Positions 4,068-28,691 of a DNA stretch of 47,438 nt are shown one piece after another. The notes under the pieces are model-generated. The model saw nothing but the letters and a program-made list of their open reading frames with translations. It did no database searches and was not told where the DNA came from. The translations under genes were made by a program, and so were the position numbers. The stretch covers positions 1 to 47,438 of the IMG/VR virus record IMGVR_UViG_3300018428_000041, one strand, 5' to 3'. The number at the start of each line of letters is the position of its first letter. The stretch's first letter is position 1. The DNA comes from a virus.

Positions 4068-4282
4068 TGGTAAGTAGAAAAAGACATATACTTAAAACTA
4101 TCACTTGGAGAATAATAGGTACATTAGATACTATGATTCTTTCATGGATAATTACAGGCAATTGGAAATTTGGAATTGCTATCGGGGGTGTCGAGTTAAT
4201 AACAAAAATGGTTCTTTATTATTTCCACGAAAGAGCCTGGTATAGGTTTAGTAAATATGGAGTTAAAAAAACTAATAAGTAA
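4067..4282 (+). CDS. DUF2061 small membrane protein
   Basis: A 71-residue protein with a basic start (VSRKRHILKTITWRIIGTLD) and two hydrophobic segments, roughly residues 17-32 and 36-52, ending in FHERAWYRFSKYG. This is the DUF2061 pattern: K-x-x-x-W-R, two helices, then H-E-R-x-W. The biochemical role of DUF2061 is unknown. I recall members lying near sulfate-activation genes in bacteria, and its place right after a sulfotransferase-like gene fits that, but the association needs a database check. It starts at the last base of the sulfotransferase stop codon and overlaps the next gene by 26 nt. Confidence 0.8.
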   Translation: MVSRKRHILKTITWRIIGTLDTMILSWIITGNWKFGIAIGGVELITKMVLYYFHERAWYRFSKYGVKKTNK

Positions 4283-5054: not shown

Positions 5055-5859
5055 ATTAGCAATATACATAAAAACTTATAGTGGAGATTTTTTAAGGATT
5101 AAAAACCTTTTGAGATCAATACAAGAATTTAATATTGATGATATACCTGTATTTATATCTTGTCCTAGAGATCAATCTGGTTCTCTATTCTCAATGATTG
5201 GTAAAGAAGGATATACTTATATACCTGATGAGTATATATTTACTCCTTCATATAGAATACCCGGATGGGAAGAACAAATGCTTGTTAAATTAAATGCTTG
5301 GAAAAACATCGATGCTGACAACCTTCTTATTATAGATTCAGATGCTGAGTTTGTTAGGGAGTTTTACTTAGATGATTTTATAGCATACGATAATGTACCT
5401 TATACTATCATGCATGAGAATAAGCAAGTATCAGAATATGAGGCAGCTCTCAAGGGTGGTGATTATTCTAAGACTGGGTATGTTAAAGCAGTATTAGCCT
5501 ACAGAGAGTTGTTTGGAGGTAAATCTAAGAAGATATACGATTATGGACCTAATCCTCACTTATGGTCTAGGAAAGTATTAGAAAGCTTCGAAGAAAATTA
5601 TCTTAAGTATAATGACTTAACTATGGAAAACTTCTGTTTTGGTATAAAGAGTCAGTATGATATACATTTTAGAGAGACGTTAACATACGGAGAGTATCTT
5701 TTAGCTGGTAGAGCAATAGATATAGTTCCTTGTGGGCCTTTCTTTAAAACGTATCATTGGAAAGAGATGTGGGACTTTGAAGAAGGTACTGGGTTAGAGT
5801 TAAAAGATAATATAAAGAAAAGTTATTTAGGTATCATTAAACAATCTAATTGGTCATGA
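5044..5859 (+). CDS. DUF6492-like putative glycosyltransferase
   Basis: The N-terminal LAIYIKTYSGDFLRIKNLLRSI and the acidic triad LLIIDSDAEFV (near residues 96-106) fit a GT-A fold with a D-x-D metal/nucleotide-sugar site, as in DUF6492 proteins. A later YDYGPNPHLWSRKVL segment is also typical of that group. Length (271) is that of a single GT-A domain. It overlaps its upstream neighbour by 11 nt and its downstream one by 4 nt (ATGA). It is probably cytosolic, as no signal or membrane segment is visible. Sugar specificity is unknown. Confidence 0.55.
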   Translation: MSYKLAIYIKTYSGDFLRIKNLLRSIQEFNIDDIPVFISCPRDQSGSLFSMIGKEGYTYIPDEYIFTPSYRIPGWEEQMLVKLNAWKNIDADNLLIIDSDAEFVREFYLDDFIAYDNVPYTIMHENKQVSEYEAALKGGDYSKTGYVKAVLAYRELFGGKSKKIYDYGPNPHLWSRKVLESFEENYLKYNDLTMENFCFGIKSQYDIHFRETLTYGEYLLAGRAIDIVPCGPFFKTYHWKEMWDFEEGTGLELKDNIKKSYLGIIKQSNWS

Positions 5860-6734
5860 TATTATATCAAGTACATCATATGTGGTATGAGACTAGCATG
5901 ATAGACGAATGCTGGACATCGGTAAATAATGCATTAAAAGCTGCACCTAATGTTGATGTAAAGATACAGATATGTTTTAATTTTCAAACCTATATTGAAA
6001 AACCAAAAGGTGATATTAGAGTAATGTTAGAAAAGCATCAAGGTCATCCTTTGTTTAGAGATAACGATATAGATGTTACTATAAAAGATGATAATGATCC
6101 ATTTTACAACATAGCCGATTGGAGAAGAGAAGTGTATGATCCTAAAGCTAAGTACACAGTATGGGGTGAAACAGATACTATCTTACCTAGAGATTTTTTT
6201 GCTATACTAGATATGGTCAACATAGAACAGCCTCATGTATTAACATTTGCTGGTAGGCCGATGTGGGACAATAGTTGGGATGTAGTAACGCATGAAAAAC
6301 TATTAGGATACTCTAAGCCTTGTCAATGTGGTGATGAGCATAGAGAAGATTGTATTGAATTATTAGAAGCACCTCTTAAATATAAAGACTATATAACTCA
6401 GGAGGAACTAGATAAGTTCAATGATGAGGCTGGTGATATAAAAATAGAACAGGTACCTTGGAAGATTGATGGCAGTACGGTTTGTGTATCAGGAGGTTTA
6501 GAAACACCTTTTATTGCTCCTGGAATGCATTTTGTTAGATAGGATACTTGTTTAGAATTTTATCTTAGAAAGAAAAATATACCTCAAGTATGTATTAAGT
6601 CTAGGTTAAAAGGACATAATTACAAACACCCTAACAAAAGAGTAGGGACTGATTCTACTAGAAATGATAAAGTATTTAAAAAGTATGCTGATGTAAGTAT
6701 AGAATCAATGCAAAAATTTATAAGTGAACTATGA
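5856..6734 (+). CDS. Putative GT-A glycosyltransferase with in-frame amber codon at 6540-6542
   Basis: The reading frame starts at the ATG that overlaps the preceding TGA. It has a GT-A-like layout with an acidic motif WGETDTILPRDF in the middle. A TAG at codon 229 interrupts it after APGMHFVR, but the same frame continues for 63 sense codons (DTCLEFYLRKKNIPQVCIKS and on) to a TGA at 6732-6734 that forms a perfect ATGA overlap with the next gene. The exact fit of the extended end to the operon spacing argues that the full frame is the ancestral gene. Whether the amber is read through, is a mutation or is an assembly error cannot be told here. A two-His/two-Cys patch (CQCGDEHREDC) lies just before the last third. 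Confidence 0.6.
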
Positions 6735-7564
6735 TAACATTTTGTATAAGTACCTATAATAATTTACCTTATTTAAAACTAGCTGTAGATTCAGTTAGAA
6801 CATATTCATATTGGAAAGATGCTCCATTTATTATCCATGCAGAAAATTGTACTGATGGAACAAATGAGTGGTTAAAAGAAAATGCTTTAGATTTAAATCT
6901 AGAGTTTTATATCGATAAAAATGATAAACCAAAAGGGATAGGAGGAGGAATGAACTTCTGTGCCGAAAAAGTCAAAACAGAATACATTAACTTTCTTCAC
7001 TCAGACTTTTATGTCACCCAGAACTGGGATTTGGAACTAATGAAAGTTCACGAACAATTCCCAGAAAAAAAACTTTGGGTCAATTCATTTCGAATTGAGC
7101 CGAATATGTTTGGTGACCAAGACAGACCAGGTACCCATTTCGTACCAAAGAATGCTTTTGGTGCTTACCATGATGATTTCAACCCTATCAGAATGTGTAA
7201 ATATGCTAATGAGTTAGCGGAAAAAAATGATTTCCTTATTCCTAAAGGAGAAGGAGTATCTGGTCTGGTGAAGAAAAGTGTATGGGATGAAACTGGAGGT
7301 AATGATCCTTTATTTGCTCCTACAAGTTGGGATGACTATGATTTATTTTGGAGGATGTTACAGAATGGAGTAGAGTTTTTGATGCCTACTAAATAGGTTG
7401 TATGGCATTTTGGAGCTAGAGGCTCTCATAGATTAGAAGAAAATAATAATCAAACCTCAGATAGACAAAGAATGTCTGAACAAGCTAATGCTCAAAAGTT
7501 TTTTAATAAATGGGGAGGGTTACCAAAGTTTAACGAATATGGAATGATATGCGACATACAGTAA
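6731..7564 (+). CDS. Family 2 glycosyltransferase with in-frame amber codon at 7394-7396
   Basis: MITFCISTYNNLPYLKLAVD and the later INFLHSDFYVTQNWD are classic GT2 (GT-A) elements: nucleotide-binding start and D-x-D-like H-S-D. WDETGGNDPLFAPTSWDDYD is the acceptor-side E/D-D motif. A TAG at codon 222 follows EFLMPTK, yet the frame continues VVWHFGARGSH, a C-terminal element seen in related GT2 enzymes, and ends at a TAA at 7562-7564, overlapping the next gene by 16 nt like other pairs in this operon. Together with the neighbour upstream, it is the second consecutive gene with one internal amber. The catalytic core lies before the stop, so a shortened product might retain partial function. 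Confidence 0.7.
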
Positions 7565-8682
7565 TTATACCTTCATATAATACGTTACCCCATCTTAAGA
7601 ATACTTATGAGAGTATCAAAAGATATGGAGGCGATGTAGATATTATAATTATAGACGATGCATCTAACGATGGAACAGCTGAATGGTTAATAAGCTTAAG
7701 CGATGAAAGACTTAATAGAGTATTAGGTACTGAACGTAAAGGACATACTTATTGGTATGATGAAGGAATGAGAATAGCTGAGACAGAAATAGTTTCTATC
7801 TTACATTCAGATATGATTATAGGCCCTGGTTACTTTGAAAACTTACTTAAACATTTAAAGAGAGGTAAAGTAGTCTGTGCTACTAGAATTGAACCTCCTA
7901 TACATCCTGCTGGTAGAGAAAAAATAGTAAGGAACTTCGGGATGGAGGCAGATGAATTTGTATGGGATACTTTTGAAAAGTTTGTTATACAAGAAAAAGC
8001 TGATAGTGTCAACCTTACTACTAAAGGTATATTTGCTCCTTGGATGTTATATAAAGAAGATCATTTATCGATAGGAGGACATGATCAAAGATTTGCACCT
8101 TTTGGTTATGAAGACTCAGATATTTTTAACAGATGGATACTTGCTGGGTATGAAATGGTTCAAGCTAGAGATGCTCTATGTTATCATATGACTTGTAGAG
8201 GTCATAAATGGAACGCAGGAGTAGGAATAGAAAATCCTGATTACAGAGAAATAATGACTAGATGTGAAAGGGAGTATCAACGTAAATGGGGCGATTGGAT
8301 ACAGAATGATCATTATCAACATCCGATTATTAATCCAAAGTATGATAGAGGTATAATAATAAAAAATTGTACTGAAGAATTAATAGGTCAGTTGGAACCT
8401 TGGGGTGATACTTTATATGTTGATTGTCCATATAGAGACTATATCGATAAAGAAAGCAAAAGAACTGTCGTTGATCTTTGGAAAAAAATTAAACCGTATG
8501 ATAACGAAAAGAATAATGCTATTTTAGTTGAGGTAGATGCTAAGACATTCACTCAACAAGATTATATTTATATTAGACAACTAAGTCCAATACTAAAACA
8601 AAATCAACCTGAACCAGGACAGGTTACTTTAGGAAATTTAAAACTTAATATTATTAAATATGAAGAAGAAATACCTTGTTGA
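7549..8682 (+). CDS. Family 2 glycosyltransferase with C-terminal extension
   Basis: HTVIIPSYNTLPHLKNTYESI followed by IIIIDDASNDGTAEWL is the standard GT2 nucleotide-sugar binding pattern. VSILHSDMIIGPGYF carries the D-x-D-equivalent site, and GGHDQRFAPFGYEDSDIFNRW is the catalytic ED loop. The GT domain occupies about residues 1-245. The last ~110 residues (from about IINPKYDRG) form an unrelated extension of unknown role. It is intact, unlike the two genes before it. Its 3' end overlaps a small unannotated gene by 23 nt. Confidence 0.85.
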   Translation: MRHTVIIPSYNTLPHLKNTYESIKRYGGDVDIIIIDDASNDGTAEWLISLSDERLNRVLGTERKGHTYWYDEGMRIAETEIVSILHSDMIIGPGYFENLLKHLKRGKVVCATRIEPPIHPAGREKIVRNFGMEADEFVWDTFEKFVIQEKADSVNLTTKGIFAPWMLYKEDHLSIGGHDQRFAPFGYEDSDIFNRWILAGYEMVQARDALCYHMTCRGHKWNAGVGIENPDYREIMTRCEREYQRKWGDWIQNDHYQHPIINPKYDRGIIIKNCTEELIGQLEPWGDTLYVDCPYRDYIDKESKRTVVDLWKKIKPYDNEKNNAILVEVDAKTFTQQDYIYIRQLSPILKQNQPEPGQVTLGNLKLNIIKYEEEIPC

Positions 8683-8836
8683 GTTTACATATAACAACGG
8701 AGAAAAAGAAGAAGTTACTTTGACCACAGATAATATAAAATGGTCTATAGAACAGTATTGTAGGAACAGACATATTATTAATCATCAAATATTAGAAGAA
8801 GGCAATAGTTCTACTAAACAAATGCTTTTTGGTTGA
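8660..8836 (+). CDS. Small hypothetical protein (58 aa)
   Basis: An ATG-initiated frame inside the last codons of the preceding glycosyltransferase encodes a charged 58-residue protein starting MKKKYLVEFTYNNGEKEEVT. The alternating pattern VEFTYNNG...VTLTT suggests two beta strands, and IKWSIEQYCRNRHIINHQI an amphipathic helix. It fills an otherwise empty 150-nt gap in a region where genes overlap, which supports its being real. I recognise no family. The candidate late promoter of the next gene overlaps its 3' end. Confidence 0.55.
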   Translation: MKKKYLVEFTYNNGEKEEVTLTTDNIKWSIEQYCRNRHIINHQILEEGNSSTKQMLFG

Positions 8837-8843
8837 TATTTAT
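8836..8843 (+). promoter_or_regulatory. Candidate late promoter (ATATTTAT)
   Basis: ATATTTAT lies 23 nt before the ATG at 8859. It belongs to the [ACT]TATTTAT set found before several structural and lysis-type genes here. The motif is short and common in AT-rich DNA, so this single instance is weak. Confidence 0.35.
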
Positions 8844-8858
8844 ATAAAAGACTATTCA

Positions 8859-9236
8859 ATGAATAAAATAGAAAAATACGTAAAAAACTTTATATCAGAA
8901 GCAGCAAAGATAAATTTTGCAGGACATTCTTTTATTTTAAAAGTTGACACTAACGAAGATCCTCAAAAGAAAGGAGTAAAAGTACAATTCCTTCCTACTC
9001 AGTTTGGTGGCATTACTCCTACTGAACAAAATGATATTGCTATTGAATTAGAAACTAGATTAGAAAAAGGTTTATCTCAATTCGATATGAGAGTAGAAAG
9101 AGATAGAAACTTAAAAGATAAAACAGTTATTGGTTTCTTTATTTACATTGAGTATTTCGATAGAATTATTAGAAAGGCTCTTTCAGGACAAAATCCAGAC
9201 AGCTCTTCTATAGAAAAAGAACCAGAAGCTATTTAG
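8859..9236 (+). CDS. Hypothetical phage protein (125 aa)
   Basis: MNKIEKYVKNFISEAAKINF begins an amphipathic helix, followed by strands (HSFILKVDT, GVKVQFLPTQFGG) and a charged C-terminal tail. The frame is open 30 nt further upstream from a TTG, but the ATG at 8859 is the natural start. I do not recognise the family. The composition is soluble, with no membrane segment. It separates two blocks of glycan genes and is preceded by a late-type motif, so it could be a minor structural or late protein; this is inference only. Confidence 0.6.
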   Translation: MNKIEKYVKNFISEAAKINFAGHSFILKVDTNEDPQKKGVKVQFLPTQFGGITPTEQNDIAIELETRLEKGLSQFDMRVERDRNLKDKTVIGFFIYIEYFDRIIRKALSGQNPDSSSIEKEPEAI

Positions 9237-9265
9237 TTTCTAGTTACATAATAAGTTATAGTTAT

Positions 9266-10024
9266 ATGTTTAGAAAAATCTATACGTTTGGGTGCTCTTT
9301 CTCCGCACCGTACTGGCTTGAAGAAGAAAAAACATACACTAGCCTACTAGCTAAAAACTATAACTGTGAGGAGTTAAACAACTCTAAACCTGCTGACTGT
9401 AATGATGCTATCTTTTTAAAATTTACAGATCATCTTCCTGATTTTAAAGAGAACGATCTAATCATTTATCAATTTACTTCCTACAATAGAGAAGGATTCT
9501 ATATTAATAATCATAAAAAGTATTTTTCTACTGCAGGTTTGTCTCCTGACCCAGAACATAATAGAAAACTATTAGATGAATTTGGAGGAGGAAGAGCTAA
9601 GTATAAGATTACTGATGATGAAATAATGACTCTTTTAGATTATACTACAATATGGTCTATATACTCTCTTCGTAATAAATTTTTAAGAGTATATAATATT
9701 TTACAGTATTTAAAAGAAGAAAAAAATATAGACTACCAGGTATTATTTTTAGATAATCTATTTAGTTCTATAGTCTCTTCATATAACTTATTAAAGTTAC
9801 CAACTAGATCAAATGAATTAAATGTAGGTATAAAAGAATGGGTTACTGCTAATAAATTAAGGTTAATAGATATGCCTACTGTTTATCACAAACAAAGAGA
9901 TGAACATATTTCAATTGAAGAAGCAGGAATATACAAACAAGATAAACACCCTAATGAAAAAGCTCATGAATTGATAGCTAAAGCTATTATGAATAAACTA
10001 ACTGAAAAAGCATCGTTAATATGA
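9266..10024 (+). CDS. SGNH/GDSL hydrolase family protein 1
   Basis: YTFGCSFSAPYW places the putative nucleophile Ser11 in a G-C-S block I motif. KPADCNDAIF holds the block III-like Asn, and IYKQDKHPNEKAHELI supplies the D-x-H pair of block V near residues 228-243. Length 252 is typical. Such enzymes are usually O-acetyl esterases or acyl transferases on glycans or lipids. It is followed by a GT25-like gene with an ATGA overlap. No signal peptide is evident, so it is likely cytosolic. First of six divergent SGNH proteins in the window. Confidence 0.75.
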   Translation: MFRKIYTFGCSFSAPYWLEEEKTYTSLLAKNYNCEELNNSKPADCNDAIFLKFTDHLPDFKENDLIIYQFTSYNREGFYINNHKKYFSTAGLSPDPEHNRKLLDEFGGGRAKYKITDDEIMTLLDYTTIWSIYSLRNKFLRVYNILQYLKEEKNIDYQVLFLDNLFSSIVSSYNLLKLPTRSNELNVGIKEWVTANKLRLIDMPTVYHKQRDEHISIEEAGIYKQDKHPNEKAHELIAKAIMNKLTEKASLI

Positions 10025-10593
10025 ATTACAATGTAATAGTTTTATCGGTGAAGACAGATGTAGAGAGAAGAAAGCATATTACTAAAGTGTGTAAAACTTT
10101 GAAGCTTAATTTTGACTTCTTTAATGCTTTAACTCCAGTTGATTTAGATGATAGTTTAATAAATACATACTATAGCAACATGGATGTATATCAATATCCT
10201 GAATTAAATCATAAGGCAGTATTTGCTACATTTGAAAGTCATAAAGAAATATTAAAGACAATCTATACGAGTAAACAAAACACATTAGTTTTAGAAGACG
10301 ATTTAGTACCGATCAGGGACTATAATTTTACTGATATAGATTTCAGCTCTTTTGACCTACTTCAATTAATGTCTGAAATTAGTTGCTGTTGTCACTTTGT
10401 GAATTGGATATCAGCTGGGTTCCTTTATCAGAAATTTAATTCAAAAGATTATTATCCTACACAGGCTTTTGATTGGGAGTTACATAAATTAAGAAACGAA
10501 TTTAATATACAGACAGTAAACGAACCTGTCTTTGAACAAACAAATAATTTTAAATCACATTTAGCACCTTATGGTTACAAAAAAATTCATTAG
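10021..10593 (+). CDS. GT25-like (LPS-type) glycosyltransferase
   Basis: NVIVLSVKTDVERRKHITKVC matches the start of family 25 glycosyltransferases (V-I-x-L-x-x-x-x-x-R-R), and NTLVLEDDLVPI gives the conserved L-E-D-D. HKAVFATFESHKEI corresponds to the G-x-x-x-S-H segment. At 190 residues it is slightly shorter than the usual 200-250. Family members add galactose or glucose to LPS cores or proteins. It is coupled to the SGNH gene upstream and overlaps the next gene by 23 nt. Confidence 0.75.
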   Translation: MNYNVIVLSVKTDVERRKHITKVCKTLKLNFDFFNALTPVDLDDSLINTYYSNMDVYQYPELNHKAVFATFESHKEILKTIYTSKQNTLVLEDDLVPIRDYNFTDIDFSSFDLLQLMSEISCCCHFVNWISAGFLYQKFNSKDYYPTQAFDWELHKLRNEFNIQTVNEPVFEQTNNFKSHLAPYGYKKIH

Positions 10594-11353
10594 AATACTC
10601 TGGGGGAGTTTTGATAGATATAAAAATCAAATCGTTGAAGCTAGAAAAGATAACTTAAACGAAACAGTAGTGGTGTGGGGAGAAGATAATGCTAATTTAT
10701 TAGATGAATTAGGATACGATTGTCATTTAGTAAGCAACTCAGCTTATGATCCTTCTATAGCTGCTGATCATACATTTAAAGATCATAGAAGCTTGATACA
10801 CAAAATAGAAGGATTAAAAATAGCATTAGACTTACTGTATGATGAGATAGTATTTGTCGATTGGGACTGTAGAAAAGTAAAAGAGATAGATGATAACTTT
10901 TGGAATTTATTAAGACAAAAAGAATCTAAGCTTCAAGTTCCTCTTTACACATACCCTAAAAAAGCATTTAACATAATGCTAGAAGATACAAAAAGAGAAC
11001 CTCATATAAATAATTTCATCAAAAAGTTAAAAGAGTATATAGAAAAATATAGCTTTGAATATCAGACTAATCATATAATCCCTAATACTGGTTTTATGTA
11101 CTGTAATGATATTACTATCATAGATAAGTTACTAGAAATTATTAAGGCTAATGATCTTCAAACTGTACCTGACGAACTATCAGTATTTTTATACGGGCAG
11201 CATTTAGGTTTAAATCAGTTTATTAAAGAAATAGATCCATTAGTTATAGGTGGTAAGGTTCATGGATACGAATGGTGGAATAATATAGAAGATTCATTTG
11301 ATAAATACAAAGCATCGTTCGGTAATAAAACTAATTACTTTATACATTACTAA
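10571..11353 (+). CDS. Putative glycosyltransferase, FIHY-tailed family, copy 1
   Basis: The protein opens FIRILWGSFDRYKNQI, has VVVWGEDNANLLDELGYDCH, a D-x-D type site EIVFVDWDC near residues 94-102, YTYPKKA, and ends KTNYFIHY. The same order of elements (RALWG, VYVWGRVN, LFLDWDI, YSYPKN, final FIHY) occurs in the minus-strand gene at 30853-31563, so the two are paralogues. The D-W-D site and GT-A-like order suggest nucleotide-sugar use, but I cannot name an established family. It starts within the GT25-like gene. Confidence 0.55.
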   Translation: MVTKKFIRILWGSFDRYKNQIVEARKDNLNETVVVWGEDNANLLDELGYDCHLVSNSAYDPSIAADHTFKDHRSLIHKIEGLKIALDLLYDEIVFVDWDCRKVKEIDDNFWNLLRQKESKLQVPLYTYPKKAFNIMLEDTKREPHINNFIKKLKEYIEKYSFEYQTNHIIPNTGFMYCNDITIIDKLLEIIKANDLQTVPDELSVFLYGQHLGLNQFIKEIDPLVIGGKVHGYEWWNNIEDSFDKYKASFGNKTNYFIHY

Positions 11354-11354
11354 T

Positions 11355-12089
11355 ATGCATTTTAAAAAAGCTTTAATACAATCACAAGAAGGATCACCAA
11401 TACATTATTTGGCTCCTATACCTGTTTATATGAAACAATTCGATGATGATGACCTTCATCAAAGAGTTTATGATTTAGGAATAGAAAAATTAGATGCTGT
11501 TCAAAAGCAAATGGGACAAGAACTTCCTGAGCAGTTAGATTCAGAGAGGGTAGAGTCTTATTCGGTGAACTATGATAGACAAGATGATTGGGTAGAACCT
11601 AATGAGTTTCAACCTATAGGTAGTAGATTTTTTACTCCTCCTAATAATTTTCTTAACACTCCTGATCCAGATGTACAGGTTTTAGTTGATAGAATTAAAT
11701 CAGGATACATAGAACTTTTAGAAACATTACAACTAAAGAATAACAGGAACCCAGAAATCACAGAAAGCTGGATGCAGTACTATGATCCTTATAAAGGTAG
11801 AGGACATAATGCTCATAATCATTGTAGATGGAGCCCAGAAGAAGCTTCACCAACTTGTTTCTCTGGAGGATATTATTTGTCTGATGGTGAACCTATTTTA
11901 GATCATCCTTACAGTGGGGTGTTTACTTTTCACATAAGAGGAGCAGCTCATTTTATTAGACCTAAAAAGGGAATGTTAATTATATGGCCGTATGATATAG
12001 TACATTCTGTTAAACCATTTTACGGTAAATCAAATAGAGTAGTTATAAACTTTAACATTGAAGATTCAGAACTTAAAGGACTTTTATGA
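11355..12089 (+). CDS. 2OG-Fe(II) oxygenase-like protein 1
   Basis: The C-terminal half holds the double-stranded beta-helix pattern of 2OG-Fe(II) dioxygenases: HNAHNHCRWSP for the proximal metal ligand, FSGGYYLSDGEP, PKKGMLIIWP, and IVHSVKPFYGKSNRVVINF with the distal His and the 2-oxoglutarate Arg. This layout is common in phage-encoded putative 2OG oxygenases (PF13759-like). These enzymes hydroxylate proteins, nucleic acids or small molecules. The start ATG at 11355 lies 2 nt past the preceding stop; a longer in-frame extension lies inside that gene and was rejected. ATGA coupling to the next gene suggests glycan or tail-protein modification, which is inferred. Confidence 0.7.
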   Translation: MHFKKALIQSQEGSPIHYLAPIPVYMKQFDDDDLHQRVYDLGIEKLDAVQKQMGQELPEQLDSERVESYSVNYDRQDDWVEPNEFQPIGSRFFTPPNNFLNTPDPDVQVLVDRIKSGYIELLETLQLKNNRNPEITESWMQYYDPYKGRGHNAHNHCRWSPEEASPTCFSGGYYLSDGEPILDHPYSGVFTFHIRGAAHFIRPKKGMLIIWPYDIVHSVKPFYGKSNRVVINFNIEDSELKGLL

Positions 12090-13018
12090 ATAAAGATTTC
12101 AGAGTAGTTTTTGTAAATTGGACTAAGCCTTATTTTTATAAGAAACAAGCTGAAGGATACAACTTTGATAAACTTGCTGATTTAACATCAGAAGATTATG
12201 ATATGGTTGATTATGAATTAAGAATTCAACAAGCAGCTATAGACTCAGTTAGAAAATATATGCCTGGTAATAGAATTTATCTATATACAGACACTGCTGG
12301 ATATAATTTTTATAAACAAAAAGGAATGCTTCAAGACTTTGATTTTGTGAATATAGAAGTTTTAGATAACTATAATAAGACTGCTACTAATCCTGGTAAA
12401 TGGTGGACTAGCGGTAAGTCTGTAGTTATGGGACATGTTACAACTCCATTTTTATTTTTAGATAACGATTTCATATTGCAATCTGCAATACCAGATGAGT
12501 TTTGGGATTATGATTTAATTCATACACAATGGGAAATACAGAGAGGACATTTCTATGTCACTCAAGATATGTTTGATAAATTAGAGGTTCCTATAGATAA
12601 CTTTGAGGAAAAGATGCTAATGCCTAACACTTCTTTTGTGTGGATGAATAGCGATACAATTAAAAATAACTACTATGAAAATCATTTAAAAATAGTAAAT
12701 AAAGAGTATGAATCTATTCCGGAATGGCTATGGCTACTTTCTGATCAAGGGTTACTAGGTTACTGTGCTAGGGAACATCTTAATGCAAAAGTTGGAACTC
12801 TGGAGAAAAATGCTTATCTTTCTTATGCAGAGCATCCTAAAAAAGAGGATGAATGTGGGTACACTCCAATGTGGGTAGATATAAATAATAAGGATCACTT
12901 TGATCACATTAAATATCGCCACATATGGATTGATAAAAGGAGAATGAAAAACGATATACAATTCAGAAGAAAAGTACTATCGGAGATCGAATTAAGAGAG
13001 AAGAAAGATTTATTGTAA
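12086..13018 (+). CDS. DUF6734-like putative glycosyltransferase
   Basis: FRVVFVNWTKPYF opens the protein, and TTPFLFLDNDFIL gives a D-x-D site near residues 125-137, preceded by WWTSGKSVVMGH. This order fits the GT-A-like DUF6734 group; a related gene lies at 16756-17946. MPNTSFVWMNS and LLSDQGLLGYC are further conserved-looking segments around a putative acceptor site. It ends the first plus-strand glycan operon and is followed by a late-type promoter motif. The sugar is unknown. Confidence 0.6.
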   Translation: MNKDFRVVFVNWTKPYFYKKQAEGYNFDKLADLTSEDYDMVDYELRIQQAAIDSVRKYMPGNRIYLYTDTAGYNFYKQKGMLQDFDFVNIEVLDNYNKTATNPGKWWTSGKSVVMGHVTTPFLFLDNDFILQSAIPDEFWDYDLIHTQWEIQRGHFYVTQDMFDKLEVPIDNFEEKMLMPNTSFVWMNSDTIKNNYYENHLKIVNKEYESIPEWLWLLSDQGLLGYCAREHLNAKVGTLEKNAYLSYAEHPKKEDECGYTPMWVDINNKDHFDHIKYRHIWIDKRRMKNDIQFRRKVLSEIELREKKDLL

Positions 13019-14664: not shown

Positions 14665-15264
14665 ATGAGAAACTTACCAATGGCGATTGGTGGGCTAGTA
14701 GTGATTTTATTGCTAATGGCTTTCACCTCAGTACAAAGAAGTTTTAACAAAGTAGAAATAATTAAATTAGAAGCAAAACCAATAGAGGTTATATTACCTG
14801 ACCCATTAGAGGGTATAAAGGTAGAAATAGATTACAAAGGACATAATGACTTTTTACAAGCAATAGGTCATAGAGAGTCTGGAAATAGATACGAAGTAGT
14901 TAATAGTTTTGGATATATGGGAAAATATCAATTCGGTAAATCGACATTAAAAGGTTTAGGATTTGATGTTACAGTAGATGAATTTATCAATAGTCCATAT
15001 ATTCAAGAAAAAGCAATGAATTCATTATTGTTGCATAATCAAAAAAAACTTCGTAAATTTATAGAACAATATGAAGGACAAGTAGTACATGGAGTATTAA
15101 TAACTGAGTCTGGAGTATTAGCTGCAGCACATTTAGCTGGAGCAGGTAATGTTAAAAAGTTTTTTAAAAGAGGATTTGAGTTTGAAGATGGATACGGAAC
15201 CAAAATGACATCGTACATGGCTCAATTCTCAGGATATACTTTAAGATTAAATGGCGGTAAATAA
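14665..15264 (+). CDS. Membrane-anchored lytic transglycosylase/lysozyme-like endolysin
   Basis: Residues 5-23 (PMAIGGLVVILLLMAFTSV) form one N-terminal hydrophobic helix, either a signal anchor or a SAR-type segment. The domain from about residue 66 reads IGHRESGNRYEVVNSFGYMG followed by KYQF, the E-S-G-N...G...G-x-Y-Q-F signature of lysozyme-fold lytic transglycosylases, with the Glu of HRESG as likely catalytic acid. LAAAHLAGAGNVKKFF is the conserved second half of the fold. It probably cuts peptidoglycan at lysis; SAR-type export would remove the need for a classic holin, but none can be assigned. Its 3' end overlaps the SGNH gene by 14 nt. Confidence 0.7.
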   Translation: MRNLPMAIGGLVVILLLMAFTSVQRSFNKVEIIKLEAKPIEVILPDPLEGIKVEIDYKGHNDFLQAIGHRESGNRYEVVNSFGYMGKYQFGKSTLKGLGFDVTVDEFINSPYIQEKAMNSLLLHNQKKLRKFIEQYEGQVVHGVLITESGVLAAAHLAGAGNVKKFFKRGFEFEDGYGTKMTSYMAQFSGYTLRLNGGK

Positions 15265-16003
15265 AATAATCTTTTTAGGAGATACATTTACAAGAGGAGA
15301 TGGAGCAGAATGGCCTGGGATGTTTTCCAAGCTAGGTGCTCTTCCTTTTGAATTTAAGCAAAATACTTGGCACCAAAGACTCAGAAAAGAGGTAAATGAT
15401 TTTAGTAAACTATCTCAAGACTTTAATAAGTTCTTCGGACCTCGGTTAGTTAAAAATGCTGAGTACGTAATAGAAACTAGAGAAAGTCAAGGCTGGGCAA
15501 AAAGAGTTGCCGATCATTTTAAACTCCCTTATAAGAATTATTCTAATAATTTCAAGTCAATAGGAGAGTACTTACCTTTTTTGAACTATCACAGTGATGA
15601 TGATTTAAAGAATTGCTTAGTAATAGCTGGAGTACTTCCTATAGTAAATGATTTTACATTTAATCATGCAAATCAAAAACAATTAAGAAATATTACTGTT
15701 CCTTATTTTGCTTCTCAGATACTTTTAATGAAAGAGTATGTAGAGAACAGAGGAGGTATATTTTTATATTTTCATACTACAGACTATCCTGAAGTATTAT
15801 ATGATCCAAAGTTTAATGAGTTTATTTTAGAACTTAGTCCTCTGTTACTTTTAGAGGGTATTTTTGAAAATAATATTGGTCAGTCATTCAGATTTAGAAA
15901 GTTCGACGGCATTCATTATGATATAGGAGGTCAAAAAGAGATAGCAAGAATTATTATAAATCAGTTGGAATCCTCCGAATTTATTCGTATATTTAAAGAA
16001 TAA
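15251..16003 (+). CDS. SGNH/GDSL-like protein 2 with Thr at the nucleophile position
   Basis: IIFLGDTFTRGDGAEW aligns with the block I G-D-S-x-T-x-G of the other copies, but residue 12 is Thr, not Ser. The block V region reads KFDGIHYDIGGQKEIA, keeping a D-x-x-H pair. The 250-residue length is normal. Replacement of the nucleophile suggests either a Thr-dependent enzyme or a catalytically weak, binding-type protein. A host-type promoter for the next gene is embedded in its last codons (15964-15996). It starts within the end of the lytic enzyme gene. Confidence 0.65.
   Translation: MAVNKIIFLGDTFTRGDGAEWPGMFSKLGALPFEFKQNTWHQRLRKEVNDFSKLSQDFNKFFGPRLVKNAEYVIETRESQGWAKRVADHFKLPYKNYSNNFKSIGEYLPFLNYHSDDDLKNCLVIAGVLPIVNDFTFNHANQKQLRNITVPYFASQILLMKEYVENRGGIFLYFHTTDYPEVLYDPKFNEFILELSPLLLLEGIFENNIGQSFRFRKFDGIHYDIGGQKEIARIIINQLESSEFIRIFKE
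15964..15996 (+). promoter_or_regulatory. Bacteroidota-type promoter inside the end of the SGNH gene
   Basis: GTTG at 15964-15967, 20-nt spacer, TATATTTA at 15988-15995, then TAAATAAAGGTTATG leading to the small zinc protein gene. Both boxes lie within coding sequence for the last 13 residues of the SGNH protein. Confidence 0.7.
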
Positions 16004-17969: not shown

Positions 17970-18002
17970 GTTGCCTAGGAACTTAATTTTTCGTATATTT
18001 AA
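17970..18002 (+). promoter_or_regulatory. Bacteroidota-type promoter
   Basis: GTTG at 17970-17973, 20 nt, TATATTTA at 17994-18001; an AAAATAACTATTAAAATA stretch precedes it as at other copies. Drives the DUF932 gene. Confidence 0.75.
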
Positions 18003-18029
18003 GTATATAAATTTTTAATCAAATAAGTT

Positions 18030-18873
18030 ATGTCAGATGTTATGTTTAGTTTCGAAGGTCAGCAAGATTATATGACTAAGGAACAATTAAAAGAAGTATG
18101 TCCTTTAGCATTCGCTAAGGAAGCTACTAACCCACGTTAGTAAGAAATATCTATTCGTTAATACTGAAACGATTATAGATGATTTAGACAAATTAGGTTG
18201 GAAACCAGTTCAAGCTGCTCAAAGAAAAGGTAGATCTGGAACTTCAACTATCTTTTCAAAGCACATGGTTGCTTTCCAGAATCCAGAAATTATGATTAAA
18301 GGAAAAGATGGCGATGATGCTTTCCCTAGAATTATTATGACGAACTCTCACGATGGTATGCAAGCGTTTAAATTTAGCGTTGGTATATTTAGATTAGTTT
18401 GTTCTAATGGTTTAGTTGTTGCTGATGAGCAGTTTAGTGATTTTAAAATTAAGCACAAAGGTTATACTTTTGGTGAACTTAGAAAAGTTGTTAAGCAAGC
18501 TGTTGCGGATCTTCCTAATAAGGTTAAGGTTCTTAACGATATGAAAAATAGAATTCTTACTCAAGATGAGAAGAATAAATTAGCTTTAGATGCTATGTTA
18601 ATTAGAGCTGGTATCGAACCAGGTTCTGAGAAAGCTGAAAAATTTAACTACGATGATGAGACTATCGAAGATATTTTAGATCCTACAAGAGATGAGGATA
18701 AAGGAGATAATCTTTGGAAAGTATTTAACGTAGTTCAAGAGAAGATTACTCAAGGAGACTTTCACGCTGCATTGAAAGGTGCTAAAGTTAGAAAGGTTAG
18801 AAAGATCAAATCATTTGAGAAAGATCTTGTAGTAAATAAAAAGCTGTTTAAGTTAGCTACAGCATTAGTTTAA
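18030..18873 (+). pseudogene. DUF932-like protein gene with a frameshift near 18131-18138
   Basis: The first frame (ATG 18030) encodes MSDVMFSFEGQQDYMTKEQL and on to NPR, then hits TAG at 18138-18140 and TAA. From about 18133 the +1 frame continues HVSKKYLFVNTETIIDDLDK without interruption to 18873, matching the DUF932 pattern (V-S-x-K-Y-x-F-V, then L-G-W-x-P, then F-S-K-H-M-V-x-F). Joining the two gives a normal ~280-residue protein. Loss of two bases (an expected CCACAC read as CCAC) would explain the break. The 3' fragment could restart at the ATG 18265. Error, mutation or recoding are all possible. DUF932 proteins are common in mobile elements and phages, role unknown. Confidence 0.7.
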
Positions 18874-18891
18874 TTAATTATTGTAAGTTGG

Positions 18892-18920
18892 GAGAGGGCT
18901 TATACCCTCTCTTTGCTTTT
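18892..18920 (+). terminator. Rho-independent-type terminator after the DUF932 gene
   Basis: Perfect 7-bp stem GAGAGGG / CCCTCTC around CTTATA, followed by TTTGCTTTT. It ends only 3 nt before the lipoprotein ATG, so it might also act as an attenuator for that gene. Confidence 0.75.
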
Positions 18921-18923
18921 GTT

Positions 18924-20147
18924 ATGAAAAGGTTATTTAATATTATATTAATCTTTCTACTACTATTCGCTTTGTTTAGTTGTGAGAAAGAAGAGTTAGA
19001 AGGACCAGGTCCTATTTTTGATTGTGTTACTTGTTATGATCAAAATACTAACTATAAGGTTGAACATTGGAAAATAGACTTTCCGATGATACACAACGAC
19101 TATTACGAATCTAAAACGGAGAATGGTCCTAACTGGGGAGCTCCAACAGATTTTCTTATAGTAGATTACGATAATGACGGATACCTAGATGCGGTTACAG
19201 GTGATTCTGATTATACATCTAGTTTTGCTGGAGTAGCAAACCGAAGGTACTTTAAGTTCTTTAAAGGTAGTCCTAATGGAGATTTAACTTTAGATACTAG
19301 ATCTCAGTATCAAAATATAGTTGGACCTATACATGGTGCGACATCTTTTTTAGGGGATTATAATAATGATGGCAGACCGGATATGGTTTTTATTGATAGC
19401 GGAGTAGATGATCAGACCGGAACAGGAGCAGCTCCAGGATCTTATCCTATCATTTTGATGAGTAATGAACAAGGTTATTACGATAGGGTAGCATATGAAA
19501 ATGCTTATGGTGGATTTCATGATGGAGCATCCGCAGATATAGATAATGATGGAGATTTGGATATAGTCCTTCCTAGATGGTTCACTATGATAAATCAAGG
19601 ATATGGAACTTTTAGTATACAACCTTTTCCAATTGAGACTATAGATGATCCAACTACTTTAGTTATAGCTGATTTAGATAATGATGGAATGTTAGAATGG
19701 ATTTATGGCTCAGGAACTATGTATCAACCTCCAGGAGCATATCGTCACAGATCCTGGATTGGTAATCCTGTAGAAGGAATTAAAGATATTATTCCACATG
19801 TTGATAACTTTGGAATATTTTTAGATGTGAAGTTTTGGGATATTGACAATGACGGAGTGCTAGAAATGGTAGTCAATAGAGCATCAGATCAAAATCATCC
19901 TCAAGGTCATTGGATAGCATGGCATATGCAAGTGTTAGATTATACTGATGATGGTGTTATAGATATTACTAACAGTACTATCGAACAGAATACCTATTAT
20001 CCTACAACTCCTGGTTTAGGGTTTGGATGGATTAGTTCTATCAATATTAGAGAAGATAAATATGGAAATGTTTTCCTATTCTCTGATGATGGAAATACAT
20101 ATGTTAAATGGAAGTTAGAGAATGGATTTTTCAAAAGAGTTCTTTGA
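18924..20147 (+). CDS. Surface lipoprotein with FG-GAP/VCBS-type calcium repeats
   Basis: The ATG at 18924 follows the terminator hairpin; it gives MKRLFNIILIFLLLFALFSC, a lipoprotein signal peptide with lipobox LFSC (Cys20). The next residues EKEE fit the acidic, Lys-containing export signal of Bacteroidota surface lipoproteins. The mature part holds at least six D-x-D-N-D-G-type loops (DYDNDGYLD, DYNNDGRPD, DIDNDGDLD, DLDNDGMLE, DIDNDGVLE, DYTDDGVID), as in FG-GAP/VCBS beta-propellers that bind calcium. Total length 407. A phage-made surface protein could mask receptors or block superinfection, but it could also be acquired host material. No promoter of the common type lies in front, so expression may read through the hairpin. 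Confidence 0.8.
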   Translation: MKRLFNIILIFLLLFALFSCEKEELEGPGPIFDCVTCYDQNTNYKVEHWKIDFPMIHNDYYESKTENGPNWGAPTDFLIVDYDNDGYLDAVTGDSDYTSSFAGVANRRYFKFFKGSPNGDLTLDTRSQYQNIVGPIHGATSFLGDYNNDGRPDMVFIDSGVDDQTGTGAAPGSYPIILMSNEQGYYDRVAYENAYGGFHDGASADIDNDGDLDIVLPRWFTMINQGYGTFSIQPFPIETIDDPTTLVIADLDNDGMLEWIYGSGTMYQPPGAYRHRSWIGNPVEGIKDIIPHVDNFGIFLDVKFWDIDNDGVLEMVVNRASDQNHPQGHWIAWHMQVLDYTDDGVIDITNSTIEQNTYYPTTPGLGFGWISSINIREDKYGNVFLFSDDGNTYVKWKLENGFFKRVL

Positions 20148-20731: not shown

Positions 20732-21436
20732 ATGGCAAAAGCATTCTTTTTTGGAGATAGTTTTACAAGAGGAGATGGGTTGTTAGATCCAGAATTGATT
20801 CCTAATATAGATAATATTCCTCATTGGACAGAATATGTTGCTACTGAGCTTGGCTATTCTGAGTATGAAAATCATGGTAGGCAGGGTAATTCTAATGATG
20901 AAATACTGTTAGATATTATTTCTACTATGGGTGAGTTTAATGATGGTGATTTAGTTTGTATCGGACAAACGTTTATGGAAAGACAAATTTTTCCATGTTG
21001 GAGGATAGATAAAGTAGATAGAACAGGAAGGTTAGAATATAAAGATAGACATGAATGGATTACAAGAGTAGGTAGTACGAATGCAGGTGTTGATGATCTT
21101 TTTCATCCTGAGGTACAAAAAAAGTTTGCAATGGAATCTGGGGAGTACATGGGAGATATGGTCATAGGAACTCAGGCGTATATTTCGTTTGTTAAGACCA
21201 GAATGCCTGCTCATTTTCAGCAATATTATAGATTTAGATTTGCAGAACTAGCCAGGTACTTAAATAAAATAGGAGTTCAGGTTTACTTATGGGACGTGCC
21301 CGATAATTGTCCTGATTATGAATCAATAAAGAAATTTACAAACGGGCAGATTATGGACGGACATTGGTCTTGGAACGGTAGTTTATTGTTTGGCAAAAAG
21401 GTTGTAAAAGATATTAAAAAAGGTAAATATATTTAA
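20732..21436 (+). CDS. SGNH/GDSL hydrolase family protein 3
   Basis: KAFFFGDSFTRGDGLL gives Ser10 in block I, NHGRQGNSNDEIL the block II/III Gly and Asn, and IMDGHWSWNG the D-x-H dyad near residue 209. At 234 residues it is a complete small SGNH domain. Compared with copy 2 (which has GDT), it shares F-T-R-G-D-G after the nucleophile, so these two are the closest pair. It is adjacent to two membrane protein genes, suggesting a membrane or envelope substrate. Confidence 0.8.
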   Translation: MAKAFFFGDSFTRGDGLLDPELIPNIDNIPHWTEYVATELGYSEYENHGRQGNSNDEILLDIISTMGEFNDGDLVCIGQTFMERQIFPCWRIDKVDRTGRLEYKDRHEWITRVGSTNAGVDDLFHPEVQKKFAMESGEYMGDMVIGTQAYISFVKTRMPAHFQQYYRFRFAELARYLNKIGVQVYLWDVPDNCPDYESIKKFTNGQIMDGHWSWNGSLLFGKKVVKDIKKGKYI

Positions 21437-21437
21437 A

Positions 21438-21659
21438 ATGATTGAAATAATTCAAATATTACAAATTATAGGATTGTATTTAGCCACAGGCTTTATATGG
21501 TCTAAGTTTATAGAGTATTGTGTTGTAGGCAAGGTACCAGGATCTGTTGGTATGCCTTTTTCTACAAAAGATCACGTTTGGCAAATGACACTATGGCCTC
21601 TCAGTGTGATAATTTTTATTTTTCACATAATTCGAAACTTATTTAACGGAGAATATTAA
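21438..21659 (+). CDS. Small membrane protein (73 aa)
   Basis: Two hydrophobic stretches, around residues 4-22 (IIQILQIIGLYLATGFIWS) and 48-66 (WQMTLWPLSVIIFIFHIIR), with a polar loop between. No family recognised. It starts one base after the SGNH stop and overlaps the reductase gene by one base, so these genes are co-transcribed. Confidence 0.6.
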   Translation: MIEIIQILQIIGLYLATGFIWSKFIEYCVVGKVPGSVGMPFSTKDHVWQMTLWPLSVIIFIFHIIRNLFNGEY

Positions 21660-22372
21660 TGAACGTATTAGTATTAGAGGAGATTATTAAAGTTACCTCT
21701 ACTAACTGGAGATTTATATTTTCAGATCCTTTAGTAGATAAACTTAATTTTATACCAGGTCAGTTAGTTCAGTTATTAGCAAGACCAGGAGAAGAAAATG
21801 CAGTTATTAGAAATTACTCAGTAGCCTCCTGGCCTGATGGGACTAATAGATTAGAGATTATTATCACTTATCTTGAAGGAGGACAAATGAGTGAATACTT
21901 ATTTAAAGAAGCTAAAGTAGGAGATGAATTTGCTTATAGAGGCCCAATGGGTGTATTTACTCTTCCTGATAATTTAGAAGAAAGAGAAATATTCTTTGTA
22001 GCCACAGGTTCAGGAGTATCTCCTTTTAGATCCATGCTAGGTAACATCTACAATAAGAAGATTCCTTTCAAAGGTATTAACTTATTCTTTGGTACAAGAA
22101 CAGAGAATGACCTCTTATATAGAGATGAATTTGAATTATACGAAAGAGAGTTAGTAAACTTTAACTATCATCCAGTTCTTTCTAGAGAAAAAGTAGACGG
22201 GATTAAAAGCGGTTGGGTGCATCCTCATTATCTAGAATTTGCTAATCTTTTAGATCAAAGACCATTAGTTTATTTCTGTGGTTGGGATAGAATGATAAGT
22301 AATGGTAGAAAGTTACTAGCAGAAAAAGGTTATGAAATGACTAAAGATATCAGAGTAGAAATATTTGGGTAG
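21659..22372 (+). CDS. Ferredoxin/flavodoxin-NADP+ reductase-like flavoprotein
   Basis: RNYSVAS (residues 51-57) is the FAD-binding R-x-Y-S motif, GPMGVF (95-100) the FAD phosphate/stacking loop, ATGSGVSP (115-122) the NADP-binding G-x-G-x-x-P motif, and YFCGWDRMI near 209-217 the C-G-x-x-x-M element that closes on the nicotinamide. At 237 residues it has both domains and matches bacterial FNR (Fpr) size. It would pass electrons between NADPH and ferredoxin or flavodoxin. No ferredoxin gene is visible in the window. Its stop overlaps a GTG start of another SGNH gene. FNR is unusual in phages and may support an oxygenase, a desaturase or nucleotide reduction. Confidence 0.85.
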   Translation: MNVLVLEEIIKVTSTNWRFIFSDPLVDKLNFIPGQLVQLLARPGEENAVIRNYSVASWPDGTNRLEIIITYLEGGQMSEYLFKEAKVGDEFAYRGPMGVFTLPDNLEEREIFFVATGSGVSPFRSMLGNIYNKKIPFKGINLFFGTRTENDLLYRDEFELYERELVNFNYHPVLSREKVDGIKSGWVHPHYLEFANLLDQRPLVYFCGWDRMISNGRKLLAEKGYEMTKDIRVEIFG

Positions 22373-23112
22373 TGCAGTTCAAAAGACTCATAGCGTTTGG
22401 GGATAGTTTTACTTTCGGGCATGGTCTTCCTGATTGTCAATCTATGGACGGAATTGGTCCAGGCGATGAACCAAGTAAGTTAGGTTTTGTTTCTGAGTTA
22501 GCTAATAGTCTAAATATTAAAGAAGTACTTAACTTTGCATCTCCAGGAGCCTCTAATAGGTTTATTTGCACTAGTATTTTAAACTTTCCTGAATTTAAAC
22601 CAGATGACTTAATCTTAACTCAATTTACTTATCACGAAAGAGATTATTATTGGAATGAAGATGGACAATCACAGTTTGTAGGTTCTTGGAATTTTGAAGA
22701 AGATCCTTTTGGTAAATACTTTGCTAGTAGAACTTATAAAGAAGCATTTCAAAGGTCCTATGAAGCTATATTGCTTTCTATTCTCTATTTAAAAAAACAA
22801 CACGGAGTTAACTTTGGATTTATAACTCCATCACCAGATGGGTTAGAATATTCTATATCTACAACGGATAAAACTATCTTAGATGAAGAAGCTGTAGTAA
22901 AGAATAGCAAACATAACAAATTTGTAGCTAACAGTATAGATACAGTTAATTCTTTTTTGAATGTTCAAGATGAGTACAAAGAAGCTAGTCTTTTTCATTT
23001 TGGTGTTAAAGATTTTGCTCCTGATAATTTACATTGGGGGTTGAAGAGTAACAAGCACTTTGCTCAAATATTGACAAATAGATTTGGTAAAAAACGTACG
23101 ATTTTACATTAA
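22372..23112 (+). CDS. SGNH/GDSL hydrolase family protein 4
   Basis: A GTG at 22372 overlapping the reductase stop gives MQFKRLIAFGDSFTFGHGL, with Ser12 in block I. FASPGASNRFICTS supplies the block II/III Gly and Asn, and FAPDNLHWGLKSNKHFA the D-x-x-H of block V. The 246-residue length is normal. An alternative ATG lies far inside the motif and would destroy it, so GTG is preferred. Last gene of the 20144 unit; a new promoter follows its stop. Confidence 0.8.
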   Translation: MQFKRLIAFGDSFTFGHGLPDCQSMDGIGPGDEPSKLGFVSELANSLNIKEVLNFASPGASNRFICTSILNFPEFKPDDLILTQFTYHERDYYWNEDGQSQFVGSWNFEEDPFGKYFASRTYKEAFQRSYEAILLSILYLKKQHGVNFGFITPSPDGLEYSISTTDKTILDEEAVVKNSKHNKFVANSIDTVNSFLNVQDEYKEASLFHFGVKDFAPDNLHWGLKSNKHFAQILTNRFGKKRTILH

Positions 23113-27596: not shown

Positions 27597-27832
27597 TGAA
27601 AGAAATTAGACAGCAGTTTACAAAAGCGCTCAAGGTCATTGACTCGTGCAATAGGCCTGAGCACTTTATGTCTGCTAAAACCTATATCAATCTATTCTTC
27701 AAAGTTAATAGCACTAAAGCTAAATATGGTACTTATGAAGTAGATCCTGTTATAGTCAATTATTATGAAACGCTCAAGAATAAATTAAAAAGAGCAAAAA
27801 GAAAGTTTTATATTACAAAAGAGGACTCCTGA
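27596..27832 (+). CDS. Small basic hypothetical protein (78 aa)
   Basis: MKEIRQQFTKALKVIDSCNR, ending in a Lys/Arg-rich tail KNKLKRAKRKFYITKEDS. Probably helical and nucleic-acid friendly by charge, with no known motif. It overlaps the protease-like gene by one base at its start, and its 3' end runs 20 nt into the opposite-strand SGNH gene, so the two transcripts converge. Confidence 0.55.
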   Translation: MKEIRQQFTKALKVIDSCNRPEHFMSAKTYINLFFKVNSTKAKYGTYEVDPVIVNYYETLKNKLKRAKRKFYITKEDS

Positions 27833-28520
27833 ACCTCTGGACGTGTTTATAAAACAGATGAGAAGCCCATGCTTCATGTCCTTCAGCAGAAGGATGTCCG
27901 CATGGAAGATCTGAAGTGAAGTTATTATGCTCTAAAAATTGAGCCATCACATCAGAAGTCCAAGATGGACGATCAGGGATGTCTTCATAGAAGTTATGAG
28001 ACATAAATTGGATTAGGTTAAGGTTATTTAAGTTAGCCCAGCCTTCTAAAAGTTCTTTGAATACTTGGTTGTTGAATTGATAATGAGCATCAGCATTGAT
28101 AAAGCCTACATAGTTTTGTAGGAAGTATTTTTGATCTCTATTCAATTTGTTAAGATTATGCATCTGAAGAAAAGGATAACGGTATAAAGTATCTGTGGTA
28201 TTGAACTCACCACTTCCATCTTCTCCAAACTCTTGCTTTTCAGTTGCTATAGGAATAGGATGTCTATGAGGTTGAGTCCATTGAAACACTACTAGATCTT
28301 CATCTGTTATGTAGCCGCTTCTTTGTAACCTCAATAGTGAGTATAATGATAAGTAATCATTTCCTCCTGGCACAGCGTAGTTACGCTCTGGAGTGTTGAA
28401 CATCTTTGATAAGTGAAAGGAGTATCTCTCTTTGAATTTATCTTTTAAACCTGCTCCGTAAGTGTAGGAACAACCGAAGTAATGAGCTTTGCGAAAGACA
28501 TCGCGAAATGGATATGACAT
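27813..28520 (-). CDS. SGNH/GDSL hydrolase family protein 5
   Basis: Read on the minus strand, ATG at 28520 gives a 235-residue protein starting MSYPFRDVFRKAHYFGCSYT, with Ser18 in a G-C-S block I followed by Y-G-A-G. NYAVPGGNDYLSL has the Gly/Asn blocks, and LPCGHPSAEGHEAWA holds the C-terminal His. A longer frame to 28601 lies over the promoter and is not preferred. A CTATTTAT motif stands 26 nt upstream. It is the only minus-strand gene in this part, between two plus-strand units. Confidence 0.75.
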   Translation of the reverse strand: MSYPFRDVFRKAHYFGCSYTYGAGLKDKFKERYSFHLSKMFNTPERNYAVPGGNDYLSLYSLLRLQRSGYITDEDLVVFQWTQPHRHPIPIATEKQEFGEDGSGEFNTTDTLYRYPFLQMHNLNKLNRDQKYFLQNYVGFINADAHYQFNNQVFKELLEGWANLNNLNLIQFMSHNFYEDIPDRPSWTSDVMAQFLEHNNFTSDLPCGHPSAEGHEAWASHLFYKHVQRFRSPLL

Positions 28521-28538
28521 ATTAATTAAAACTTTATT

Positions 28539-28546
28539 ATAAATAG
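28539..28546 (-). promoter_or_regulatory. Candidate late promoter (CTATTTAT on minus strand)
   Basis: On the minus strand CTATTTAT is 26 nt before the SGNH ATG. On the plus strand the same bases read ATAAATAG directly before the ATG at 28548, so it could serve both directions. Confidence 0.45.
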
Positions 28547-28547
28547 T

Positions 28548-28691
28548 ATGAAAAAGCACAGACAATATAGATCGAATCAAGGAAGATCTCCTAGACAGCA
28601 AGCTAGTAATGAGAAGATTACTATCTTAGCAGTACTTGGTCTTTTAATTACACTTATATTTACAGTTATTGATAACTTCATTAGAGGTTAA
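28548..28691 (+). CDS. Tiny membrane protein (47 aa)
   Basis: The ATG at 28548 opens a basic N-terminus MKKHRQYRSNQGRSPRQQAS and one clear transmembrane segment ITILAVLGLLITLIFTVI. The stop overlaps the next ATG (TAATG), the spacing typical for co-translated genes here. Could be a spanin/holin-type or an accessory protein; nothing settles it. Confidence 0.55.
   Translation: MKKHRQYRSNQGRSPRQQASNEKITILAVLGLLITLIFTVIDNFIRG

Follow-up and report, generated by a model that had tools for sequence, protein, structure and literature searches.

The phage exclusion lipoproteins of E. coli phages, Llp of T5 and Rtp45, are directed at receptors, work on the periplasmic side and are very small, Rtp45 being about 6 kDa (PMC12685063). 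In Bacteroides, the surface lipoprotein BtuG is a seven-bladed beta-propeller that binds vitamin B12 and forms a stable complex with a TonB-dependent transporter; it is not phage-encoded (PMC10404256). Lauber et al. found in Capnocytophaga that C-X-K-(D/E)2-X is the optimal surface export signal and is enough to send a periplasmic lipoprotein to the surface; the F. johnsoniae consensus SDDFE is also functional (PMC5080379). Little is understood about the phages that infect the abundant marine Flavobacteriaceae-type bacteria, and most of their receptors are unknown.

The gene described here lies in a 47-kb linear virus record, analyzed over its whole length of 47,438 nucleotides (the window). 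The open reading frame at 18924-20147 is real, as judged from the list of reading frames and the translation, and codes for 407 amino acids. A TTG at 18888 opens a longer reading frame, and the signal peptide starts at the ATG at 18924. Read from the sequence, with a regular-expression scan for the lipobox, the protein has the lipobox L-F-S-C20 followed by E-K-E-E, with a linker leading to an FG-GAP propeller.

18924..20147, + strand: gene for the FG-GAP beta-propeller lipoprotein, 407 aa (open reading frame; PF13517 at E 4e-15; homologues)
18924..18980, + strand: type II signal peptide, residues 1-19, MKRLFNIILIFLLLFALFS (sequence; helix 2-18 in the model)
18981..18995, + strand: lipidation Cys20 and export-signal-like EKEE (C-X-K-(D/E)2 as in PMC5080379)

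Judged by its genes, the window covers part of the genome of a relative of Flavobacterium phage immuto. Identity to immuto is 69% for the DUF932 protein, 53% for the HNH protein and 58% for the baseplate wedge protein, and both genomes run in the order glycan genes, HNH, DUF932, small genes, baseplate. The virus probably infects marine Flavobacteria-type bacteria, with Bacteroidota as the host phylum backed by the homology to immuto. FG-GAP lipoproteins are encoded in five distinct immuto-like viruses. Identity to the window protein is 99% in G037/L001, 62% in G008, 30% in L002/G006, 25% in G010 and 19% in G004. An additional viral contig, G040, codes for a 22% homologue, though its membership in the phage group is unclear. 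Among 78 records found through DUF932, five carry the gene, all of them among the 13 nearest (DUF932 identity of at least 84%) versus none of the other 65 (Fisher 6e-5), with gene absence uncertain in the many fragmentary records. The gene follows DUF932 in the window and G008, precedes a RecA-like gene in L002, follows the gene for an FNR-type oxidoreductase in G010 and lies about 9 kb downstream of DUF932 in G004. In all five immuto-like carriers it is thus within the accessory region around DUF932, at differing positions.

18265..18873, + strand: DUF932 gene, conserved backbone anchor (PF06067 at E 5e-25; 69% to phage immuto)
20188..20376, + strand: 62-aa gene after the lipoprotein gene, conserved in the clade (same 3' neighbor in G008)

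Cultured phages gave no homologue of the window protein at E 1e-5 and one insignificant match at E 1; two other phage homologues as queries found nothing in them at E 0.01. In titles and abstracts, searches for FG-GAP phage lipoproteins and for Bacteroides-phage exclusion lipoproteins turned up no such protein.

The first-pass annotation had likened Cys20 and EKEE to the Bacteroidota signal for outward display, and the C-E-K-E-E of the window protein does fit C-X-K-(D/E)2-X. The residues from the Cys onward are C-S-K-E-D in L002, C-T-K-E-E in G040, C-E-K-E-N in G008, C-Q-K-E-P in G004 and C-S-V-E-P in G010. Five of the six phage homologues therefore have C-x-K-[D/E], which is retained down to about 20% identity; the chance of this is about 5e-11 assuming independence, which the homologues partly lack. 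This conservation and the homology to immuto support the earlier description of a phage-encoded, lipidated, surface-directed propeller of the calcium type. Display of the window protein on the infected cell is the natural prediction from its sequence, and a well supported one. The relative L006 codes at 1292-3588 for two lipoproteins with export-signal-like starts (CTKEE and CSKKDE), adjoining an SGNH-like gene.

The propeller repeats are recognized by FG-GAP_3 (PF13517; E 4e-15, 56.6 bits against a cut-off of 26.9) and FG-GAP (PF01839; E 4.7e-6, 26.8 bits against a cut-off of 22.1). Where six D-x-D-N-D-G loops had been counted earlier, we find five calcium-type loops: four exact matches at residues 81, 205, 250 and 306, and DYNNDG at 145. 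No more than one strict or three relaxed loop matches occurred in any of 20,000 composition shuffles. The loop of blade 6 is degenerate in the window protein and canonical in several homologues, for example DIDKDG in the alignments. We rejected DYTDDG near residue 339, as the model has no blade loop there.

19164..19181, + strand: calcium-type loop of blade 1, DYDNDG (motif scan; between model strands 77-80 and 89-92)
19356..19373, + strand: calcium-type loop of blade 2, DYNNDG (motif scan; model)
19536..19553, + strand: calcium-type loop of blade 3, DIDNDG (motif scan; model)
19671..19688, + strand: calcium-type loop of blade 4, DLDNDG (motif scan; model)
19839..19856, + strand: calcium-type loop of blade 5, DIDNDG (motif scan; model)
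20043..20069, + strand: degenerate loop of blade 6, residues about 374-382, REDKYGN (alignments; model)

An AlphaFold model from 19 homologues (pLDDT 72.6, pTM 0.76), which replaces an earlier seven-sequence model with pTM 0.66, has six four-stranded blades by our reading of the strand list. Each canonical loop falls between the first two strands of its blade. Foldseek against the PDB gave CRTAC1 as the best match (E 1.5e-7, TM 0.52 by query) and also matched integrins; against BFVD two entries were close, one named a repeat-domain protein of an uncultured phage. By sequence, the window protein had no match in the PDB, no PHROGs family at E 0.01, no match to the anti-phage and defence models of PADLOC at E 0.1, and nothing in NCBIfam, where some homologues had matches below threshold only.

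We also examined the likely hosts. A search of 250 Flavobacteriaceae genomes with the window protein gave a strong match in one of them (G118, E 3e-24). A profile search, carrying out the host comparison that the first-pass annotation had suggested, found full-length homologues in G118, G378, G219, G322, G406 and G427, all Flavobacteriaceae, where they sit among ordinary chromosomal genes. The phage proteins do not form one clade in the tree. The protein of phage G004 groups with that of host G219 (54% identity over 450 aa, support 100/100), the one of phage G010 groups with those of hosts G322 and G406 (40%, support 100/99), and the window and G008 are a third lineage. L002 groups with the window lineage at 95/93 in a 19-row tree, a placement left open in the 12-row tree. 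The AU test rejects a single phage-specific family, at p 1e-69 for 17 rows and 7e-47 for 12 rows from which the longest branches were left out. At least three passages of the gene between hosts and these phages are therefore needed to explain the tree. The tree itself gives no direction; transfer was presumably from host to phage, because diversity is wider among the hosts and the setting there is chromosomal. Our conclusions leave out the hosts G383, G650, G270, G723 and G130 and the viral contig G040, which are distant or long-branched. The distribution among immuto-like viruses and the separate host-phage transfers are new here.

In the window, the gene does sit directly behind a terminator-like hairpin, as stated earlier.

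18890..18913, + strand: terminator-like hairpin between DUF932 and the lipoprotein gene (9-bp stem with 5 G-C pairs, then TGCTTTTG)
17987..18007, + strand: phage promoter-like element upstream of DUF932, TTTTTCGTATATTTAAGTATA (element search)

The 60 nt behind DUF932 have a folding energy of -17.5 kcal/mol. The 17-22 kb scan gave three terminator-like sites where 2.2 were expected. By number alone the hairpin is therefore not significant, but it is a strong one. It is present in G037/L130, whereas the other phages showed none ahead of their FG-GAP gene. A few relatives (L089, L091, L092, L096-L098) have unrelated hairpins after DUF932. The promoter-like element TTTTTCNTATATTTAAGTATA has eight sites at three or fewer mismatches against 0.07 expected and precedes DUF932 and other genes; across the window none precedes the lipoprotein gene. 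With the hairpin ahead of it and no such element, the lipoprotein gene in the window probably depends for its transcription on read-through from DUF932 or else on its own weak start. The homologues in G008, L002 and G010 either overlap the gene upstream or come immediately after it, so the low expression proposed earlier is not a property of the whole family. TTTTTCNTATATTTAAGTATA is found at 17987, 23146, 24914, 25840, 27049, 30231 and 33488 with a TTG about 20 bases upstream, and together these resemble the Bacteroidota housekeeping promoter. TATAAATA occurs 23 times on both strands of the window against 13 expected (no shuffle reached 23), in part overlapping the promoter-like elements. The DUF932 frame of the window is broken at 18134 by a length difference from G037/L001, the result of either an assembly error or a real frameshift.

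Surface sugars are a theme here, as nearby genes show: they code for glycosyltransferases, a methyltransferase, a cytidylyltransferase and SGNH-like proteins. The glycan cluster at 340-13018 codes for the methyltransferase, the cytidylyltransferase, several family-2 glycosyltransferases and DUF6492 and DUF6734 proteins, and immuto has a comparable cluster in the same place. Three window proteins (15251-16003, 20732-21436 and 22372-23112) open with GDSxT-like motifs and two of them weakly match Lipase_GDSL; the relatives L002 and L006 encode more proteins of this type, directly upstream of or one gene from their FG-GAP genes. An FNR-type FAD/NAD oxidoreductase is encoded at 21659-22372 near the variable region, a gene that many members of the clade keep at 54-69% identity. 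Directly behind DUF932, L078 has a different small lipoprotein (10608-11045, 145 aa, LTSCSGD), so the site can hold other lipoprotein cargo. More distant relatives (L099, L101, L102, L105, L117-L119, L123) encode downstream of DUF932 an SPFH/band-7-like protein of about 280 aa with a lipobox-like N-terminal anchor. L002 also codes at 8663-10879 for a 738-aa protein with two Hedgehog/intein-like motifs (CFPAGTVITLSNGD... and CFTYDSQVEMFDG...), with a related 596-aa protein in L078.

Between the window and G008, the lipoprotein gene has dN 0.31 and dS 1.50, a dN/dS of about 0.2. Its rate is close to that of the neighboring oxidoreductase gene, whereas DUF932 and HNH evolve more slowly. The lipoprotein gene is therefore kept functional, under less constraint than core genes. 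The window and G037 differ by 50 substitutions across 47 kb, of which the lipoprotein gene has four, all changing amino acids. Diversifying selection was rejected as a claim, four changes being too few (P 0.04 for their number, uncorrected). A minus-strand reading frame at 27813-28601 also has four amino-acid-changing substitutions and no silent one in this comparison.

We propose that immuto-like phages of marine Flavobacteriaceae-type bacteria carry a host-type surface lipoprotein as accessory cargo. Infected cells would make the protein, Sec would export it, and after lipidation at Cys20 it would be taken to the outer membrane, where the EKEE signal would flip it outward. Its six-bladed propeller, stiffened by calcium, would then stand on the infected cell and may bind the kind of surface partner that its host relatives bind, either a glycan or a transport complex of the outer membrane. 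A surface covered or changed in this way would be a poorer target for adsorption of further phages, as would cell debris for the progeny. We put the probability of the whole proposal, a displayed host-type propeller lipoprotein that lowers adsorption, at roughly 0.38. Receptor masking is the most attractive function, held only tentatively. More doubtful is the general idea that immuto-like marine phages repeatedly take host propeller lipoproteins and that the displayed proteins, as mimics of a receptor or partner, block adsorption from outside in an exclusion peculiar to Bacteroidota. With these results, what the first-pass annotation observed is partly confirmed and its interpretation partly supported.

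We favor display and exclusion because the signal peptide, Cys20 and EKEE match a signal that is enough for display in Capnocytophaga, because of the predicted six-bladed fold and its CRTAC1 and integrin matches, and because the genes are confined to the closest relatives of the window, at varied accessory sites. The pairing of phage proteins with host proteins rather than with each other, the dN/dS, the nearby glycan and SGNH-like genes and the Bacteroidota phage backbone also argue for it, and the BtuG-transporter complex shows that such complexes exist in Bacteroidota. The proposal is weakened by the small size and periplasmic site of the characterized exclusion lipoproteins (PMC12685063), by the position of the window gene behind a hairpin without a phage-type promoter, and by the minority of related phages that carry the gene. 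It is also weakened by one host homologue, which points to nutrition. In G219 the homologue lies between genes for an SSF symporter and a sulfatase, with an ATGA overlap with the latter, and in G322 it is near a sulfatase gene and a BNR/sialidase-like gene. Such calcium propellers are common in Flavobacteriaceae. A displayed propeller that captures algal or sulfated polysaccharide, as the host relatives may do, keeping carbon flowing during infection, is therefore the main rival, almost as likely as the proposal but less likely than not on its own. However, no sulfatase, SusC or SusD gene was recognized among the window reading frames searched, and the other host homologues are outside such operons.

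The fold is also related to that of the biofilm protein Bap1, besides CRTAC1 and the integrins, and an InlB-type stalk domain (PF18998) is frequent among the host homologues. An adhesin-like cargo might let infected cells attach to particles or clump together, shifting the site of progeny release or raising contact with new hosts. We consider this unlikely, as the phage versions lack the stalk and no adhesion partner is known. Slightly less likely again is transient host cargo of no benefit to the phage, brought in by illegitimate recombination in a hot spot of gene exchange. Patchy presence and changing position fit such cargo; three or more separate lineages belonging to a single rare host family, the intact frames and export motif, and the low dN/dS between the window and G008 do not. 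Least likely is a virion protein for receptor binding or decoration. The gene is carried on a phage genome and beta-propellers occur in phage structural proteins, but the product has a signal peptide, lipobox and export motif, the baseplate and tail genes lie well away from this gene, at 38-47 kb, and most relatives lack it.

For the displayed propeller lipoprotein that we favor, repeated gene exchange with hosts suggests that the virus gains from remodelling the surface of its host. A host-type surface protein that is exchanged repeatedly with its export motif intact is a pointer to a surface structure relevant to infection, and the binding partner of the propeller could identify a phage receptor.

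Flavobacterium phage vB_FspM_immuto (G067) shares the DUF932, HNH and baseplate genes and the glycan cluster with the window, in the same order, but lacks the FG-GAP gene. The FG-GAP/VCBS surface lipoproteins of Flavobacteriaceae (G219, G322, G406, G118, G378, G427) are like the phage proteins in propeller homology, type II signal peptide, acidic residues after the Cys and, in most, a closing W-K or W-E strand, at up to 54% identity to a phage member; they differ in being chromosomal and, in several cases, in having the stalk. The propellers of CRTAC1 and integrin alpha share the predicted fold and the calcium-type D-x-D-x-D-G loops, whereas they are eukaryotic, have no lipid anchor of this kind and have seven blades against six in our model. 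BtuG, absent from the listed fold matches of the model, is like the predicted window protein a surface-anchored beta-propeller lipoprotein and can sit on a transporter. Like Llp and Rtp45, the window protein would be a phage-encoded outer-membrane lipoprotein with a possible effect on adsorption. Unlike these tiny proteins, which act from the periplasm, it is about 45 kDa (407 aa) with an outward export motif, so a block of adsorption by it would be a different mode, an exclusion that uses the outward flipping of Bacteroidota lipoproteins.
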